Shown: one piece after another, positions 13,263-33,618 of the stretch | Layout of the letters: every line of letters begins with the position of its first letter | How positions within the stretch are numbered: the stretch's first letter is position 1 | Assembly (NCBI GenBank): GCA_900315955.1 | Contig: ONBC01000009.1 | Coordinates: forward strand, 1 to 43,496 | Direction of reading: 5' to 3' | Length of the DNA stretch: 43,496 nucleotides | Source: an uncultured Prevotella sp. | GTDB taxonomy: Bacteria; Bacteroidota; Bacteroidia; Bacteroidales; Bacteroidaceae | Made by a program: the position numbers and the translations under genes | Notes under the pieces: generated by a model | What the model was told of the DNA's origin: nothing | Databases searched by the model: none | Seen by the model: the letters and a program-made list of their open reading frames with translations, nothing else

Positions 13263-13442
13263 TAACTCCTATCTTCTAACTTCTAACTCCTAACTTCTAC
13301 CTTCTAACTCCTATCTTCTAACTCCTAACTTCTAACTCCTAACTTCTAACTCCTATCTTCTAACTCCTAACTTCTAACTCCTAACTTCTAACTCCTAACT
13401 TCTAACTCCTAACTTCTAACTCCTAACTCCTAACTTCTATCT
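13263..13442. repeat. Heptanucleotide tandem repeat array between envC and gyrB
   Basis: About 180 bases made of roughly 25 copies of a 7-base unit, TAACTYC on the plus strand (GRAGTTA on the minus), with TAACTTC and TAACTCC often alternating and a few TATCTTC variants. The array starts exactly at the envC stop codon (13437-13439) and runs into the envC-gyrB intergenic space. It fills most of the 361-base gap 13076-13436; the rest holds the gyrB promoter and AT-rich sequence. The same unit flanks the four-helix-bundle gene at 31.8-32.3 kb. Confidence 0.95.
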
Positions 13443-15131
13443 TCCCAACCACGCCTCGGGATTGAGTTTCGCGCGCTCTTTGCGAAGCTGGAACTGTAGG
13501 ATGTGGTCGGGACCCACAGTGCCAAGGATTTGACGTGTAGAGACGTGCTGGCCACGGCTTACGCTCGCCGAACTGAGGTTAGAGTAGACAGAGATGTAAG
13601 CACCATGACGGAGCATGACAACCACTGTGCCCGCATAAGAGAGCACGGCACTCACCTCGCCGTCGTAGATAGCACGCGCTTTGGCACCGGCACCTCCCAT
13701 GATGTTGATACCTTTGTTGTCGAGTGTCACACCCTTGAGCCCTGCCACATTATATTGTCCGAAGTGGCTCACGATGCGATAACCACCCGTGATAGGCATG
13801 GGCAGTCGCCCCCTGTTTGCCTCAAATCCATTGTTCATCATGCGGTCGACCGATGAGAACTGTTGAACCTCCTGCTGGTCTTGCTTAGCCTCTGCAATCT
13901 CTTTCTTGGCACGCTCGGCATCAGCCGCTTGCTTTCGCTCTGCGGCTTGACGTGCTGCTTCTGCCTCCTTAGCAGCCTGTTCCGCCGCTGCTTTTCGTGC
14001 TGCTGCCGCTTCCGCTGCTGCCTGTGCCTTGCGTTTCTCTTCGGCCGCCGCTGCTGCTTCGCGTGCCTTCTGTGCGGCGATGGCTGCCTCACGTGCCTGT
14101 TGTGCTGCCAATTCTGCGGCTTTCTCGCGTGCCTTGGCTTCTGCAATACGGCGTGCATTCTCGCGTGCTGCCGCTTCGGCCGCTGCTTTCTTACGGGCGA
14201 GCTCTGCCGCGCGACGCTGCCGTGCTGCTGCGATGGCTGCCGCCTGACGACGCGCCTCTGCCTCAGCACGAGCGCGCACCTTGGCAACTTCTATCTCCAC
14301 CTGGCGGTCGATCTCCGCATTCAGTGCTGCGTCTTTCTTCCGTTGCTCGGCAATGAGCACACGGATTGTGCCTTGCTGCTTTTGGAGGCCATTGACGATC
14401 TCCTGCTGCTGATTCTTGTTGGCTTCAAGCTTAGCATGTTCCTGCCGGCCTTTATAAAGAAGGTTGTTCTTTTGCCCCTTGACATTCTGCAGTTGTTTAT
14501 GTTTGCTCGTCACCTGTTGCTGCTTGGCTTTCACCGCCTCGCCCTGCGCTTTCTGATAGTTGGCATACTCGCGCACAAACCGCAGACGGCGGTACATCTG
14601 ATAAAGGTTCTTGGCCGAGAAGATGAACATCAACTTGTCTTGAACCGTGCGATGGCGCGCCATATAGCGCATCGACTTGATGTATTTGTTCTGGCGGTCC
14701 TTCAGCTGCGCCTTCAGCGTGTTGAGCTGCGTATTCAGAATACTGATGTTTCCGTTGATATGGTGAATATCCTTTTCGATACTATGGATATTCTGCTGAT
14801 TCTTATCAATGTCTCCATTGATCATCATCAGTTCGTTCAGTTTCTTGCTGACGTTGGCTTTGTTCTCTTGCAGTGCCTTCTCCTGCTCTTTGATTTTCTT
14901 CTGAATCTCGGCGCGCTGGCTTTGAAGCTTACGGATTGAAGCATTGGAATAGGTCACCGCATGCTTCTGTTTCTTGGAAGATGCCGCGGTCCGGTTTCGG
15001 CTCGTTTGCTTGGCCGTATGGGTTGTTCGGTTGGTCTTTCGTGCAGAAGTCCTCTTCTGAGAGAATGAAGGCAACGCCACGAATAAAGCAAGCAATAAAC
15101 TAATTCTGTAATATATAATAATGTGTCTCAT
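13437..15131 (-). CDS. EnvC-like murein hydrolase activator with degenerate LytM/M23 domain
   Basis: A 564-residue exported protein. After a signal peptide (IIIYYRISLLLALFVALPSFS) come a basic linker, a long coiled coil (about residues 60-260), and an Ala/Arg/Glu-rich helical region of about 130 residues (many AAEAAARK-type repeats). The C-terminal LytM-type domain (about 450-564) has lost the zinc ligands expected of active M23 peptidases: GVTLDNKGINI replaces the H...D segment and ILQFQLRK replaces HxHFE. That is the EnvC pattern, in which a catalytically dead LytM domain activates amidases at the septum. It is the last gene of the dut-TPR-DUF4292 operon, and its stop codon is the first triplet of the heptad array. 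Confidence 0.85.
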   Translation of the reverse strand: MRHIIIYYRISLLLALFVALPSFSQKRTSARKTNRTTHTAKQTSRNRTAASSKKQKHAVTYSNASIRKLQSQRAEIQKKIKEQEKALQENKANVSKKLNELMMINGDIDKNQQNIHSIEKDIHHINGNISILNTQLNTLKAQLKDRQNKYIKSMRYMARHRTVQDKLMFIFSAKNLYQMYRRLRFVREYANYQKAQGEAVKAKQQQVTSKHKQLQNVKGQKNNLLYKGRQEHAKLEANKNQQQEIVNGLQKQQGTIRVLIAEQRKKDAALNAEIDRQVEIEVAKVRARAEAEARRQAAAIAAARQRRAAELARKKAAAEAAARENARRIAEAKAREKAAELAAQQAREAAIAAQKAREAAAAAEEKRKAQAAAEAAAARKAAAEQAAKEAEAARQAAERKQAADAERAKKEIAEAKQDQQEVQQFSSVDRMMNNGFEANRGRLPMPITGGYRIVSHFGQYNVAGLKGVTLDNKGINIMGGAGAKARAIYDGEVSAVLSYAGTVVVMLRHGAYISVYSNLSSASVSRGQHVSTRQILGTVGPDHILQFQLRKERAKLNPEAWLGR

Positions 15132-18454: not shown

Positions 18455-19792
18455 ATGAACTGGCAACAACTTATCAGTAATAAACGTCTTGGACAGGAGA
18501 ACCGGCACGCTTTGCGTCATGATGACCGCTCTGAGTTTAAGCGCGACGGCGACAGGCTGATCTATTCGGCACCTTTTCGCCGCCTTCAGAACAAGACGCA
18601 GGTGTTCCCACTCCCGGGCAGCGTCTTCGTACACAACCGCCTCACTCACTCTTTCGAGGTATCCTCTTTGGGTAAGAGCCTCGGTGATGATGTGGCCCGT
18701 CGGTTGACAGACAAGCACCCGGAGCTGCGCAATACGCTTTTCGAGGAGATAGGCACCATCGTGCAGACAGCCGGTTTGGCTCATGACATGGGAAATCCGC
18801 CGTTCGGACACTCCGGAGAGAAAGCTATCCAGACCTTCTTCACGGAAGACAACGGCAGCTTCCTGAAAAGCAAGGTTTCTGAAGCCTTCTGGGAAGACAT
18901 TACGCATTTTGAAGGCAACGCCAATGCTTTCCGACTGCTTGCCCATCAGTTTGTAGGCCGTAGGCCGGGAGGCTTCGTGATGACCTATTCCACGCTTGCC
19001 GCTGTCGTGAAATATCCGCGTGCCAGCTCGCTGGCGGGAGATCATGGCAAGTTCGGATTCTTCACCTCGGAAGCACCTCTCTATGAAAAGATAGCCAACG
19101 AGTTGGGGATCATCAGGCTTTCTGCCGACGGTGAGCCTTTAGCGTATGCGCGCCATCCGTTGGTGTTTCTCATGGAGGCTGCCGATGACATCTGTTATGA
19201 GATCATGGACATTGAGGACTCGCACAAGCTCCGCATTCTGACGTTTGACGAGACACGCGACCTGTTGCTTGGCTTCTTCGATGACGATGCCAGGCGACAT
19301 ATTCTTAGTCGGCTGAAAGAGGACGGGGTGACCGATGAGAATGAGCAGATTGTTTATTTCCGTGCCTGCGCCGTGGGCAAGCTTGAGCACGAATGCGTAG
19401 AGACATTTGTTGAGCATGAGGAAGAGATACTCAACGGAACCTTCAAGGGAAGTCTTATACAGCATATCGCGGAGCCACAGCGGGAGGCTTATCAGCGCTG
19501 TGTGCGCACATCCTATCAGAAGATTTACCACTCCAAGCCCGTGCTCGACGTGGAGCTGAGCGGTTACAAGATTATGGAGACGCTCATGCGTACGTTCATA
19601 GGAGCCGCTGTCCACCCGGAGAAGTTCCACTCGCAGCAGCTCATCAACCGCTTCTCCTCGCAGTACGACATCCACAGTGATGACCTTGAGACGCGCATCA
19701 TGGCGGTCCTCGATTTCATCAGTGGCATGACCGATGTCTATGCACTTGATATCTATCAGAAGATCAGCGGTATAGCGCTCCCGATTGTATAG
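18455..19792 (+). CDS. dgt: Deoxyguanosinetriphosphate triphosphohydrolase (HD-domain dNTPase)
   Basis: A 445-residue cytosolic HD-superfamily enzyme that cleaves dGTP (or other dNTPs) to the nucleoside and triphosphate. Motifs are in order: RRLQNKTQVFPLP and NRLTHSFEVSSLG at the N-terminus (substrate and first metal-ligand His), GLAHDMGNPPFGHSGE (the HD doublet and second-shell residues), and EAADDICYEIMDIED (final metal Asp). Length fits the family. Divergent from dut; the pair controls dNTP pools from opposite sides. Its TAG stop is the start of a 9-base tandem repeat. Confidence 0.93.
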   Translation: MNWQQLISNKRLGQENRHALRHDDRSEFKRDGDRLIYSAPFRRLQNKTQVFPLPGSVFVHNRLTHSFEVSSLGKSLGDDVARRLTDKHPELRNTLFEEIGTIVQTAGLAHDMGNPPFGHSGEKAIQTFFTEDNGSFLKSKVSEAFWEDITHFEGNANAFRLLAHQFVGRRPGGFVMTYSTLAAVVKYPRASSLAGDHGKFGFFTSEAPLYEKIANELGIIRLSADGEPLAYARHPLVFLMEAADDICYEIMDIEDSHKLRILTFDETRDLLLGFFDDDARRHILSRLKEDGVTDENEQIVYFRACAVGKLEHECVETFVEHEEEILNGTFKGSLIQHIAEPQREAYQRCVRTSYQKIYHSKPVLDVELSGYKIMETLMRTFIGAAVHPEKFHSQQLINRFSSQYDIHSDDLETRIMAVLDFISGMTDVYALDIYQKISGIALPIV

Positions 19793-19860
19793 AAGGGATA
19801 GAGGCTATAGAAGCTATAGAGACTATAGAAGCTATAGAGACTTTAGAGGCTATAGCTCCT
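19789..19860. repeat. 9-bp tandem repeat starting at the dgt stop codon
   Basis: Eight imperfect 9-base units of the form ATAGARRCT (ATAGAGGCT, ATAGAAGCT, ATAGAGACT and so on) run without gap from the dgt stop (TAG at 19790-19792) to the convergent gene end. Since 9 is a multiple of 3, every unit repeats TAG in the dgt frame. Confidence 0.9.
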
Positions 19861-30340: not shown

Positions 30341-31792
30341 ATGAAACTGCAGGAACTTTTAGCGAACATCAAGCCGCTCCGCATTGAGGGCAGCACGGAT
30401 GTAGACATCACGGGAGTAAACATCGACTCACGTAAGATCAAGGACGGTCATCTCTTCGTAGCTATGAAAGGCACGCAGACAGACGGTCATAAGTTCATCC
30501 CTAAGGCTTTGGAGCTCGGTGCCAGGGCTGTTCTCTGCGAGGACATGCCTGAGACGCTTCAGGACGGCATCACCTATGTTCAGGTGGAGAGCACAGAGGA
30601 TGCAGTGGGCAAGGTGGCAACACTCTTCTACGGCGACCCGTCGAAGCATCTGAAGCTCGTCGGTGTGACCGGAACGAACGGAAAGACCACCATCGCCACA
30701 TTATTATATAATATGTTCCGCGAGTTTGGCTACCGCTGTGGTCTGCTTTCTACCGTCTGCAACTACATCGACGGCAAGCCTGTTCCCGCTGACCACACCA
30801 CTCCCGACCCCATTGAGCTCAATGAGCTCCTCGGTGAAATGGTGAAAGCCGGTTGCCAGTATGCTTTCATGGAGTGTTCCTCACATGCCATCCATCAGAA
30901 GCGCATCGGCGGACTGAAGTTTACCGGAGGCATCTTCACCAATCTCACGCGCGACCACCTCGACTATCACAAGACCTTCGAGAACTATCGCAACGCGAAG
31001 AAGGCTTTCTTCGACGGGCTGCCCAAGTCGGCGTTCGCCATCACGAATGCCGATGACAAGAACGGCATGATCATGGTTCAGAACACGAAGGCTACGGTCA
31101 AGACGTATTCTATCCGTCAGATGGCTGACTTCCGCGCACGCATCATCGAGATGCACTTCGCCGGTATGTACCTCGACATCGACGGCCATGAGGTCGGTGT
31201 GCAGTTCATCGGTAAGTTCAATGTCTCCAACCTCCTCGCCGTCTATGGCGCTGCCCGCATGTTGGGCAAGGATCCGGAAGAGATTCTTGTGGTGCTCAGT
31301 ACGCTTCACAGTGTCAGCGGTCGTCTGGAGCCCATCCATTCACCCGCCGGCTTCACGGCTATCGTCGACTATGCCCACACGCCCGATGCCTTGGAGAACG
31401 TGCTCAATGCCATCCATGAGGTGCTCGACGGCAAGGGACATGTCATCACTGTTTGTGGTGCCGGTGGCAACCGTGACCACGGCAAGCGCCCGCTCATGGC
31501 ACAGGAAGCCGTGAAGCAGAGCGACAAGGTCATCATCACGAGCGACAACCCCCGCTTCGAGGATCCGCAGGCTATCATCGACGATATGGTAGCCGGGCTG
31601 GACAAGGAGCAGATGAAGAAGGTGCTGACAATCGTCGACCGCAAGGAAGCCATCAAGACTGCTTGCATGATGGCACAGAAGGGTGATGTCGTGCTCGTGG
31701 CCGGCAAGGGGCACGAGAACTATCAGGAAATAAAAGGTGTGAAGCATCATTTCGACGATAAGGAAGTGCTGCACGAAATCTTTAATAGTTAG
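30341..31792 (+). CDS. murE: UDP-N-acetylmuramoyl-L-alanyl-D-glutamate--2,6-diaminopimelate ligase
   Basis: A 483-residue cytosolic Mur ligase that adds the third amino acid of the stem peptide. The ATP-binding loop is VTGTNGKTT (109-117), and the substrate block [12 protein letters not shown] and [20 protein letters not shown] follow. The DNPR motif (402-405) is the meso-diaminopimelate signature, so the cell wall is predicted to be DAP-type. The stop codon (31790-31792) lies in the first unit of the heptad array that brackets the inserted four-helix gene; the C-terminus seems complete. Confidence 0.96.
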
Positions 31793-31841
31793 GAGTTAGT
31801 AGTTAGTAGTTAGAAGTTAGTAGTTAATAGTTAGTAGTTGG
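31783..31841. repeat. Left heptanucleotide array of the inserted element
   Basis: Eight consecutive 7-base units (AGTTAGG, AGTTAGT, AGTTAGT, AGTTAGA, AGTTAGT, AGTTAAT, AGTTAGT, AGTTGGA) beginning at the murE stop. The first 17 bases, 31783-31799 (TAATAGTTAGGAGTTAG), are an exact reverse complement of 32328-32344 at the right end. Confidence 0.95.
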
Positions 31842-31895
31842 AAAACACCGAATACTTCTAATATATTAATGATGACAGACTAAAGACGGAATGAT

Positions 31896-32324
31896 ATGGA
31901 CAACTTTCGACAGTTCCTATATAACAAATGCCTTAGTTTCTCCGTCCGGATCGTACGGTTCTCCCAATATCTCCAAAAGGAAAAACAACTTTATGTTATC
32001 TCTAATCAAATATGCAGAAGCGGAACAAGTATAGGGGCCAACTTAGCTGAGGCCCAATATGGTAGCAGTAGGAAAGACTTCTTGGCAAAATGCTATATCA
32101 GTCTCAGAGAAAGTTTTGAGACATGCTATTGGCTCGATGTCCTGTTCCAGGCCGATCTCATCTCGGAGAGGCAATATTCTTCGCTTTATGAAGATTGCAC
32201 GGAACTAAAGAAGCTATTCATCTCAATAACAAATAAAACAAAGAACAATTTAAAGGAGGAGAAAGCGGATAGTGAGCACAGAGTTCATGACATCAATGGT
32301 ATGCAGGAAACTCCTAACTCCTAA
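31896..32324 (+). CDS. Four-helix-bundle protein of the 23S rRNA intervening-sequence / bAvd family
   Basis: A 142-residue helical protein. The conserved SGTSIGANLAEAQYG motif with ISNQICRS before it, and KCYISLRESFETCYWLDVL after it, mark the four-helix-bundle family (PF05635) known from 23S rRNA intervening sequences and, as bAvd, from diversity-generating retroelements. No reverse transcriptase is nearby. It sits between murE and mraY where Bacteroidota normally have no gene, inside inverted heptad arrays; its own stop (32322-32324) is within the right array and its last codons (PNS) are array sequence. The tail from about residue 115 is low-complexity. Function unknown; members form pentamers and are thought to bind nucleic acid. 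Confidence 0.9.
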   Translation: MDNFRQFLYNKCLSFSVRIVRFSQYLQKEKQLYVISNQICRSGTSIGANLAEAQYGSSRKDFLAKCYISLRESFETCYWLDVLFQADLISERQYSSLYEDCTELKKLFISITNKTKNNLKEEKADSEHRVHDINGMQETPNS

Positions 32325-32344
32325 CTTCTAACTCCTAACTATTA
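32310..32344. repeat. Right heptanucleotide array of the inserted element (inverted)
   Basis: Five units in the opposite orientation to the left array (ACTCCTA, ACTCCTA, ACTTCTA, ACTCCTA, ACTATTA). It ends 2 bases before the mraY ATG at 32347, so it occupies the ribosome-binding region of mraY. Confidence 0.95.
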
Positions 32345-32346
32345 TT

Positions 32347-33618
32347 ATGCTGTACTATTTATTTAGATTTCTTGAGCAGTTCGGCATCTCAGGATCCGGC
32401 ATGTGGAGCTACATCTCCTTCCGGGCTCTGTTGGCGCTCATTCTGTCGCTCATTATCTCAGCTTGGTTCGGAGAGAAGTTCATCAAGTTCTTGAAGAGCA
32501 AGCAGATCACGGAGACGCAGCGCGACGCTAAGATCGACCCGTTCGGCGTCAAGAAGATCGGGGTGCCGTCGATGGGTGGTGTCATCATCATCGTCTCCAT
32601 CCTCATCCCTGTGCTGCTCCTCGGCCGACTGAGGAACATCTATCTCATCCTGATGATCATCACTACGGTGTGGCTCGGCTTCCTCGGAGGCTTGGACGAC
32701 TTTATCAAGATCTTCCGACGCAACAAGGAAGGCTTGAAGGGCAAGTACAAGATCGTGGGTCAGGTCTCTATCGGTCTCATCGTCGGTCTCGTGCTTTGGG
32801 CTTCGCCCGACGTGAAGATGAACGAGAATTTGACGGTCCAGCGTCAAAACGGTCAGGAGGTCGTGGTCAAGCACCGTGCCGTGGCACACAAGTCGCTCAA
32901 GACGACAATCCCGTTTGTCAAAGGTCATAACCTCGACTATTCACGCATCATGTCGTTCTGCGGCAAGTATAAGACCGCTGCCGGATGGATTTTGTTCGTC
33001 ATCATGACCATCCTCGTCGTCACTGCCGTCAGCAATGGAGCCAACCTCAACGATGGTATGGACGGCATGTGCGCGGGCAACTCGGCGATTATAGGCGTGG
33101 CGTTGGGAATCCTCGCCTATGTGAGCTCGCATATGCAGTTTGCCGCCTATCTGAACATCATGTATATCCCCGGCTCGCAGGAGCTTGTGGTGTTTATGTG
33201 TGCTTTTGTCGGAGCGCTCATTGGCTTCCTGTGGTATAATGCTTATCCCGCCCAGGTCTTCATGGGCGATACCGGCAGTCTCACGATCGGTGGTATCATC
33301 GGTGTGTGTGCCGTCATCATCCATAAGGAACTGCTGCTGCCGATACTCTGTGGCATCTTCTTCGTGGAGAGCCTTTCGGTGATCGTGCAGGTTTGGTATT
33401 ACAAACTCGGTAAGCGCAAAGGTGTCAAGCAGCGCATCTTCAAGCGTACGCCGATACACGACAACTTCCGTGTCACTCCTGAGCAGCTTGACCCCGACTG
33501 CAAGTATCTTATCAAGAGTCCGCGCTCGCCGAAGCATGAGTCGAAAATTACGATCAGGTTCTGGATCATTACGATCATCCTTGCAGCCCTGACCATCATC
33601 ACATTGAAGATAAGATAA
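32347..33618 (+). CDS. mraY: Phospho-N-acetylmuramoyl-pentapeptide-transferase
   Basis: A 423-residue polytopic membrane enzyme that transfers phospho-MurNAc-pentapeptide to undecaprenyl phosphate, giving lipid I. The conserved motifs are visible: GGVIIIV and FLGGLDDFIKIF (aspartate-rich active site), NLNDGMDGMCAG and AYPAQVFMGDTGSL (second Asp site), and a C-terminal RTPIHDNF. The length exceeds the ~360 of E. coli because of an insertion (about residues 155-205) common to Bacteroidota MraY. The start ATG is 2 bases after the right heptad array. Confidence 0.96.
   Translation: MLYYLFRFLEQFGISGSGMWSYISFRALLALILSLIISAWFGEKFIKFLKSKQITETQRDAKIDPFGVKKIGVPSMGGVIIIVSILIPVLLLGRLRNIYLILMIITTVWLGFLGGLDDFIKIFRRNKEGLKGKYKIVGQVSIGLIVGLVLWASPDVKMNENLTVQRQNGQEVVVKHRAVAHKSLKTTIPFVKGHNLDYSRIMSFCGKYKTAAGWILFVIMTILVVTAVSNGANLNDGMDGMCAGNSAIIGVALGILAYVSSHMQFAAYLNIMYIPGSQELVVFMCAFVGALIGFLWYNAYPAQVFMGDTGSLTIGGIIGVCAVIIHKELLLPILCGIFFVESLSVIVQVWYYKLGKRKGVKQRIFKRTPIHDNFRVTPEQLDPDCKYLIKSPRSPKHESKITIRFWIITIILAALTIITLKIR

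Follow-up and report, generated by a model that had tools for sequence, protein, structure and literature searches.

A probable compact mobile element without a transposase, formed by an S23 gene and its own inverted heptad arrays, between murE and mraY of an uncultured Prevotella

We analyzed a 43,496-nt stretch of contig ONBC01000009.1 from an uncultured Prevotella sp. (assembly GCA_900315955.1), hereafter the window, in which a short unit lies between two ORFs that correspond to MurE and MraY. The upstream host gene murE (positions 30341–31792, plus strand) ends with its stop codon in a left (5') array of about eight GTTAGRA/GTTAGTA heptads (31783–31839, plus strand), which begins in that codon, and the array is followed by a gene for a 142-aa protein (31896–32324, plus strand). 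A right (3') array of about five inverted heptads (32309–32344, minus strand) overlaps the 3' end of this gene, encoding its final codons and its stop codon, and stops 2 nt short of the ATG of mraY (32347–33618, plus strand). The outer ends of the arrays form a perfect 17-bp terminal inverted repeat, with the left copy at 31783–31799 (plus strand) and the right copy at 32328–32344 (minus strand). A first-pass annotation had described these perfect ends, the two arrays and their abutment on the murE stop codon and the mraY start, all of which was confirmed in the sequence. Tandem Repeats Finder delimited 8.3 heptads at 31782–31839 and 4.6 at 32309–32340, and the arms at 31783–31818 and 32309–32344 were 36 nt long, 92% complementary and 490 nt apart. 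The perfect 17-bp inverted repeat was the sole one with a gap of 60–700 nt in the 43.5-kb window, and none was obtained in 50 Markov simulations.

The gene is a member of the S23 (23S-rRNA-IVP) family, scoring 90.4 bits against PF05635 (cut-off 33.8) and 96.4 bits against TIGR02436 (cut-off 24), in agreement with its initial assignment to the intervening sequence (IVS)/bAvd family, and the protein was found to be related to PDB 2RLD (E 1e-28). It is the sole ORF of at least 100 aa in the unit, which contains neither a reverse transcriptase nor, as had been noticed from the outset, a transposase. The proposed kinship to S23-bearing rRNA IVSs was borne out by the protein family, which is common to the IVSs of Coxiella and Leptospira and the window unit, and by the complementary termini around the ORF, although the unit is located between murE and mraY and not in 23S rRNA. 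The Coxiella rRNA IVS carries terminal inverted repeats around one ORF and tandem heptads upstream of S23p, and a solved relative is reported to assemble four-helix bundles into a homopentameric toroid (PMC4990558). In CPR bacteria, 23S_rRNA_IVP ORFs are present in insertions of both 16S and 23S rRNA (PMC11270868). PF05635 and Avd of diversity-generating retroelements are stated to be homologous (PMC10053308), whereas the window unit has a single ORF and no reverse transcriptase, and a profile search against PDB sequences recovered 2GSC and 2RLD but no Avd. The 23S rRNA IVP also appears in the figure legend of one paper, among CRISPR-linked genes.

The unit is absent from the same junction in relatives, as had been suggested as a check. 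Among 29 other congeneric loci, 26 murE–mraY spacers were 3–58 nt long and two were 324 and 199 nt, the remaining one being unmeasured near a contig start and short by eye, and tblastn with 173 S23 proteins found no S23-like sequence in any of the 29 stretches. It found none either at the murE–mraY junction of another four genomes in which this S23 clade is present elsewhere (G573 gave no mraY match in this check). The empty junctions, read by eye, were too divergent to define a target-site duplication. In a tree of 31 S23 proteins, the window gene fell in a seven-member clade (support 99/99), the members of which are located at sufB–sufC (two), murE–mraY (one), rbfA–lolCE (two) and nusA–infB (two), with the flanking genes named by NCBIfam for L311, L312 and L313 and by likeness, by eye, for L314, L315 and L318. 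GTTAGRA-type arrays flank all seven members on at least one side; L311 has the left array alone, and L315 mainly the right one. Thus, one type of unit is present at different sites and variably present at a given site, as is the case for mobile elements.

To evaluate inverted arms at PF05635 loci in general, the 250 nt upstream of each S23 gene was aligned with the reverse complement of the 250 nt downstream, and partners were permuted within each sample (20,000 permutations); the loci were the best-scoring PF05635 matches rather than random picks, and most genomes surveyed were drafts or metagenome-assembled genomes (MAGs). The mean inverted score was 17.4 compared with 8.8 for permuted partners in the congeneric sample (30 loci), 12.4 compared with 8.6 in the phylum-wide sample (30 loci), 16.8 compared with 8.1 in the named multi-phylum sample (78 of 80 loci, two being dropped for short flanks) and 20.1 compared with 9.6 in the subfamily of the window gene (29 of 29 loci), and no permutation reached the observed mean in any of the four samples. 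The 95% mismatch level was exceeded by 17 of 30 congeneric, 11 of 30 phylum-wide and 50 of 78 named loci (40 of the last also exceeded the 99% level), leaving 13, 19 and 28 loci, respectively, that did not exceed it. Similar elements beside other genes, which the first-pass annotation had anticipated, were hence found in number across the genus, phylum and named samples. It had also named PF05635 genes lacking such arrays as an argument against the idea; on average this was not what was found, but a sizeable part of the loci lacks clear arms, and none were seen at a Calothrix plasmid copy of PF05635. A score of at least 12 was reached by 46 of the 73 S23 genes with long enough flanks, compared with 4 of 102 control ORFs (240–900 nt) from the named loci. 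Direct-repeat means in three samples (8.6, 10.7 and 10.0) were all below the inverted means, with a narrow margin in the phylum sample, indicating that direct repeats do not explain the arms.

The arms are locus-specific, their unit varying between loci while both arms of one locus match, and they share a period, a dinucleotide and a polarity. A clear period was present in 95 of 112 arm pairs with a score of at least 13 (7 nt in 70, 8 in 20, 9 in 4 and 10 in 1), compared with 11 of 996 control 30-mers; the other 17 pairs, whose arms were shorter than 18 nt or had no clear period, were left out of the unit logo. When the 70 heptads were aligned, on TAGTAGT-like units, one position was A in 68 of them and the following position was G in 52. 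The alignment contained 4.54 bits of information, compared with 3.80 and at most 4.04 in 30 shuffled sets of units. Of the 20 octads, 17 had the A and all 20 had the G. Furthermore, among 87 loci with a score of at least 12, the 5' arm was richer in G than in C in 82, poorer in 3 and equal in 2. In Nostoc edaphicum, the S23 gene is antisense to ribonucleotide reductase genes on both sides, and the G-rich arm is nevertheless 5' of S23 (inverted score 31); L105, L167, L171 and L218, antisense according to the gene caller, exhibit the same polarity, and in Calothrix PCC 7716, the second annotated antisense case, inverted arms are absent (score 8). Separately, short inner hairpins were observed in the arms of L325, L317, L321, L322 and L329; in L325, TCGCTTCGCGA in one arm is opposite TTGCTACGCAA in the other, each self-intact where the arms differ.

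Arrays of the window unit are also abundant apart from S23 genes. Three GTTAGNA heptads in a row, with up to 2 mismatches allowed, are matched 240 times in the 3.2-Mb draft genome to which the window belongs, compared with once for the reversed control. Among the matches listed, 29 arrays were inspected, distributed over 23 stretches of which two belong to the window. For 17 of the 29, the stop codon of a co-directional gene was no more than 12 nt away, and in several cases the array overlapped it. Outside the window, short-loop inverted pairs without a gene were present in 4 of 21 stretches, and the array sites inspected there never coincided with PF05635 genes of this genome. In the window itself, a solo array of 13 copies of a 14-mer built of the window unit (13263–13444, minus strand), without an S23 gene, abuts the stop codon of a minus-strand gene (13437–15131). 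The other strong PF05635 gene of this genome, L001, is located between pta and ackA and is bracketed by inverted arrays of a different unit, ATGTTSA. The inverted-arm test was negative for two weaker matches below the cut-off, L003 and L004, which were dropped from neighbour calling and from the unit logo. Across 150 genomes of the genus, 16 carry exact GTTAGNA arrays, this one included. As for the GTTAGTG unit, arrays occur at three places in a Thiohalocapsa genome and are confined in a Ruminococcus genome to one 470-nt stretch, which fits the element itself, and no unit copies were found in 10 further named genomes checked in this way, indicating that unit dispersal is not universal.

Other array families were encountered in the course of this survey. 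In other congeners, the unit ANGATTG that served as reversed control forms abundant arrays of its own (67 matches in G049, 41 in G101 and 27 in G127), and species thus seem to own separate heptad families. An intergenic TATAGARGC-like family with a 9-nt period is present in the window (19788–19855) and at L004 (about 1768–1835), once upstream of a weak PF05635 gene, and at L003 (about 1795–1885), GTGTAGGT arrays face each other in inverted orientation across a very short loop, directly 5' of a diverged PF05635-like gene.

The relation among unit, S23 lineage and host was determined at sdhA–sdhB, where 67 of 70 stretches (L241, L256 and L277 being left out) gave spacers of 2–55 nt in 45 cases, 101 and 117 nt in two, 186–283 nt in six and 451–615 nt in 14, the last 14 coinciding with PF05635 places. 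S23 fragments, representing decayed units, were found in two of the six middle spacers, including that of the genome studied here (283 nt), and none in the other four. In L248, L251, L254 and L262, the 186–222-nt spacers bear no likeness to S23 and hold another sequence, which partly reads as a small membrane protein. For the comparison, 14 filled loci with full flanks were used, 13 of them in the same genomes as the long spacers; L051, L063 and L079 were dropped, with a flank unmatched by the pattern or another junction. Host and S23 identity were uncorrelated (Spearman 0.016, p 0.88, 91 pairs), and the array unit, assigned to types by eye, was co-inherited with the S23 lineage across the 14 species (0 of 10,000 shuffles) and independent of the host (1,982 of 10,000 shuffles). 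The sister hosts G044/G028, G029/G046 and G004/G078 are 93–94% identical in DNA, and their S23 proteins are 50–56% identical with different units. In these three pairs, to which the profile was limited because indels spoiled it for distant hosts, identity per 100 nt of flank remained at 0.87–0.99 as far as the junction, falling slightly over the final 100 nt of sdhA (mean 0.90, compared with 0.92–0.96 further out). In two other pairs of close hosts, G078/G053 and G148/G105, the unit and the S23 type are the same, which is the pattern expected from vertical inheritance.

With regard to genomic position, a crude gene caller could assign both neighbours at 130 of 142 loci. Both ran in the direction of S23 at 108 of these and in the opposite direction at 5, of which at least one, L208, is a caller error, the downstream CarB being in sense. 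The junctions named by NCBIfam included sdhA–sdhB, nusA–infB, rbfA–lolCE, sufB–sufC, pta–ackA, araD–araA and serC–PGDH, with the IF-2, RbfA, LolCE, SufC and PGDH matches falling below the family cut-offs. A scan of L050–L109, L140–L219 and L290–L339 for eight rRNA motifs yielded no more than two isolated single-motif matches and placed none of these S23 loci in rRNA. S23 was found in none of 50,697 phage records and in 29 and 25 of 72,556 plasmid records (two queries), a near-absence that is odd for a mobile element. In G117, two 1,070-bp copies that are 99.5% identical (L290, 859–1928; L291, 879–1948) hold an S23 unit with its own arms inside what resembles, by eye, an interrupted RAYT/Y1 transposase gene. 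These copies could not be used for mapping element ends, as the duplicated 1,070 bp exceeds the S23 unit, and neither could a Calothrix brevissima plasmid pair, in which neighbouring genes are duplicated as well.

Candidate partner enzymes were evaluated in the nine S23-rich congeners, defined as having at least 10 PF05635 matches, with MAG gaps limiting both comparisons. A reverse transcriptase as an obligatory partner was rejected, PF00078 being absent in five of the nine (G008, G028, G041, G109 and G116), and so was the Y1 transposase PF01797, which is missing in one of the nine (G008) and found in 9 of 19 S23-free genomes.

Several explanations other than mobility were weighed against these results. 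In the one closest to the first-pass annotation, the unit would be an intervening sequence of the mRNA, the arms of which pair in the transcript and let RNase III free the S23 message, with movement being secondary. The ends of the Coxiella rRNA IVS are indeed paired and cut by RNase III, with tandem heptads before S23p (PMC4990558). The mostly co-directional neighbours are also in accordance with this explanation, and the folding that had been proposed as a check, when run on the 562-nt RNA, gave the arms as the outermost helix (z −4.24). However, arm–arm mismatches tolerable as G-U numbered 67, compared with 80 of the mirror kinds (p 0.32), and the ratio was 0.85 (p 0.25) in one laxer alignment and 0.75 in another, the latter deviating the opposite way (p 0.014); with no G-U excess, selection on RNA pairing is not visible, and it was rejected as a signal in these data, although recent homogenisation of the arrays, or young mismatches, could hide it. 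The polarity also stays with S23 in the annotated antisense case. The earlier idea of an mRNA-level intervening element accordingly stands as to a discrete unit with kinship to rRNA IVSs, and its mRNA stem is not supported so far; overall, we consider this explanation rather unlikely.

Ordinary recombination exchanging the junction could also mimic part of the mobility pattern, in that homologous recombination in the flanking genes would swap units that have no mobility of their own. The repeated occupation of sdhA–sdhB and pta–ackA by different lineages and the slight dip in sister-host identity before the junction could be taken in its favour, but identity otherwise stays high up to the junction, and the presence of a single S23 clade with a single unit at four junctions would be left unexplained, making such passive exchange unlikely. 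It is distinctly improbable that the arms are heptameric microsatellites, generated by slippage near stop codons and partnered by quasi-palindrome correction, with S23 being merely tolerant: S23-free arrays are abundant and include short-loop inverted pairs, and Xanthomonas genomes carry 70–75 inverted heptad pairs (PMC4692102), but ORFs at the same loci are mostly without inverted arms, the unit tracks the S23 lineage and the arms show strand polarity and a common AG. A vertically inherited autoregulator with an attenuator-like hairpin, which would suit the mostly sense orientation within operons, seems very improbable given the patchy presence, the unrelated operons and the lack of correlation between S23 and host identity.

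We therefore consider that the window unit is probably a compact IVS-type mobile element that lacks a transposase and consists of an S23 gene and its own heptad arms. The patchy presence, the occurrence at four junctions and the lineage-linked unit, all read from sequence comparison, suggest that the unit behaves as mobile. Such an element would consist of one S23 gene and two complementary, strand-asymmetric arrays of a 7–9-nt unit mostly carrying AG; gene and arms would move jointly, settling usually in sense in stop-to-start gaps of core operons, and the window unit would have reached murE–mraY after its host had diverged from the relatives sampled. The S23 protein may read the AG repeats of its own arms, periodic recognition being made plausible by the ring, and the arms may join both ends as a hairpin or cruciform, with movement presumably relying on enzymes of the host or of other origin that act in trans. 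Arrays without a gene would be decay products or passengers.

MITEs, REP/RAYT elements and TIR transposons are short, have inverted ends and give rise to gene-less derivatives. The units described here are likewise short, with inverted ends and gene-less derivatives, and differ in that their ends share a period and an AG rather than a fixed sequence and that no transposase is present. They also differ from rRNA IVSs in being located between protein genes of operons, with arrays on both sides, a locus-specific unit and a very common occurrence. Intergenic arrays of a group-specific 7-nt unit have been reported as GGGAATC in Xanthomonas and TAACTGA in Beggiatoaceae, with inverted heptad pairs in the former and array-overlapped stop codons in the latter (PMC4692102, PMC4679880). 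The accessible main text of these two papers contains no mention of S23, four helix or intervening, and S23 is not mentioned in the accessible parts of the heptameric-repeat papers on Xanthomonas, Nostoc and Beggiatoaceae. The open-licence full texts searched contained no account of S23 genes flanked by heptad arrays, and the Coxiella IVS, in the part of its report that was accessible, is the nearest case (PMC4990558).

A wider possibility, which we put forward tentatively and short of calling it probable, is that these units represent an undescribed, widespread class of elements defined by period, in which an S23 ring is combined with any AG-bearing 7–8-nt repeat arms that stay complementary during unit drift, homes to operon junctions and seeds heptameric repeats, with the rRNA IVS being the special case in 23S rRNA. 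If this is true, it would join the function of the very common S23 genes with the origin of over-represented heptameric repeats, a question that would be testable with one purified protein and its arm sequence, and the rRNA intervening sequence would be one landing site of a much larger family of elements.
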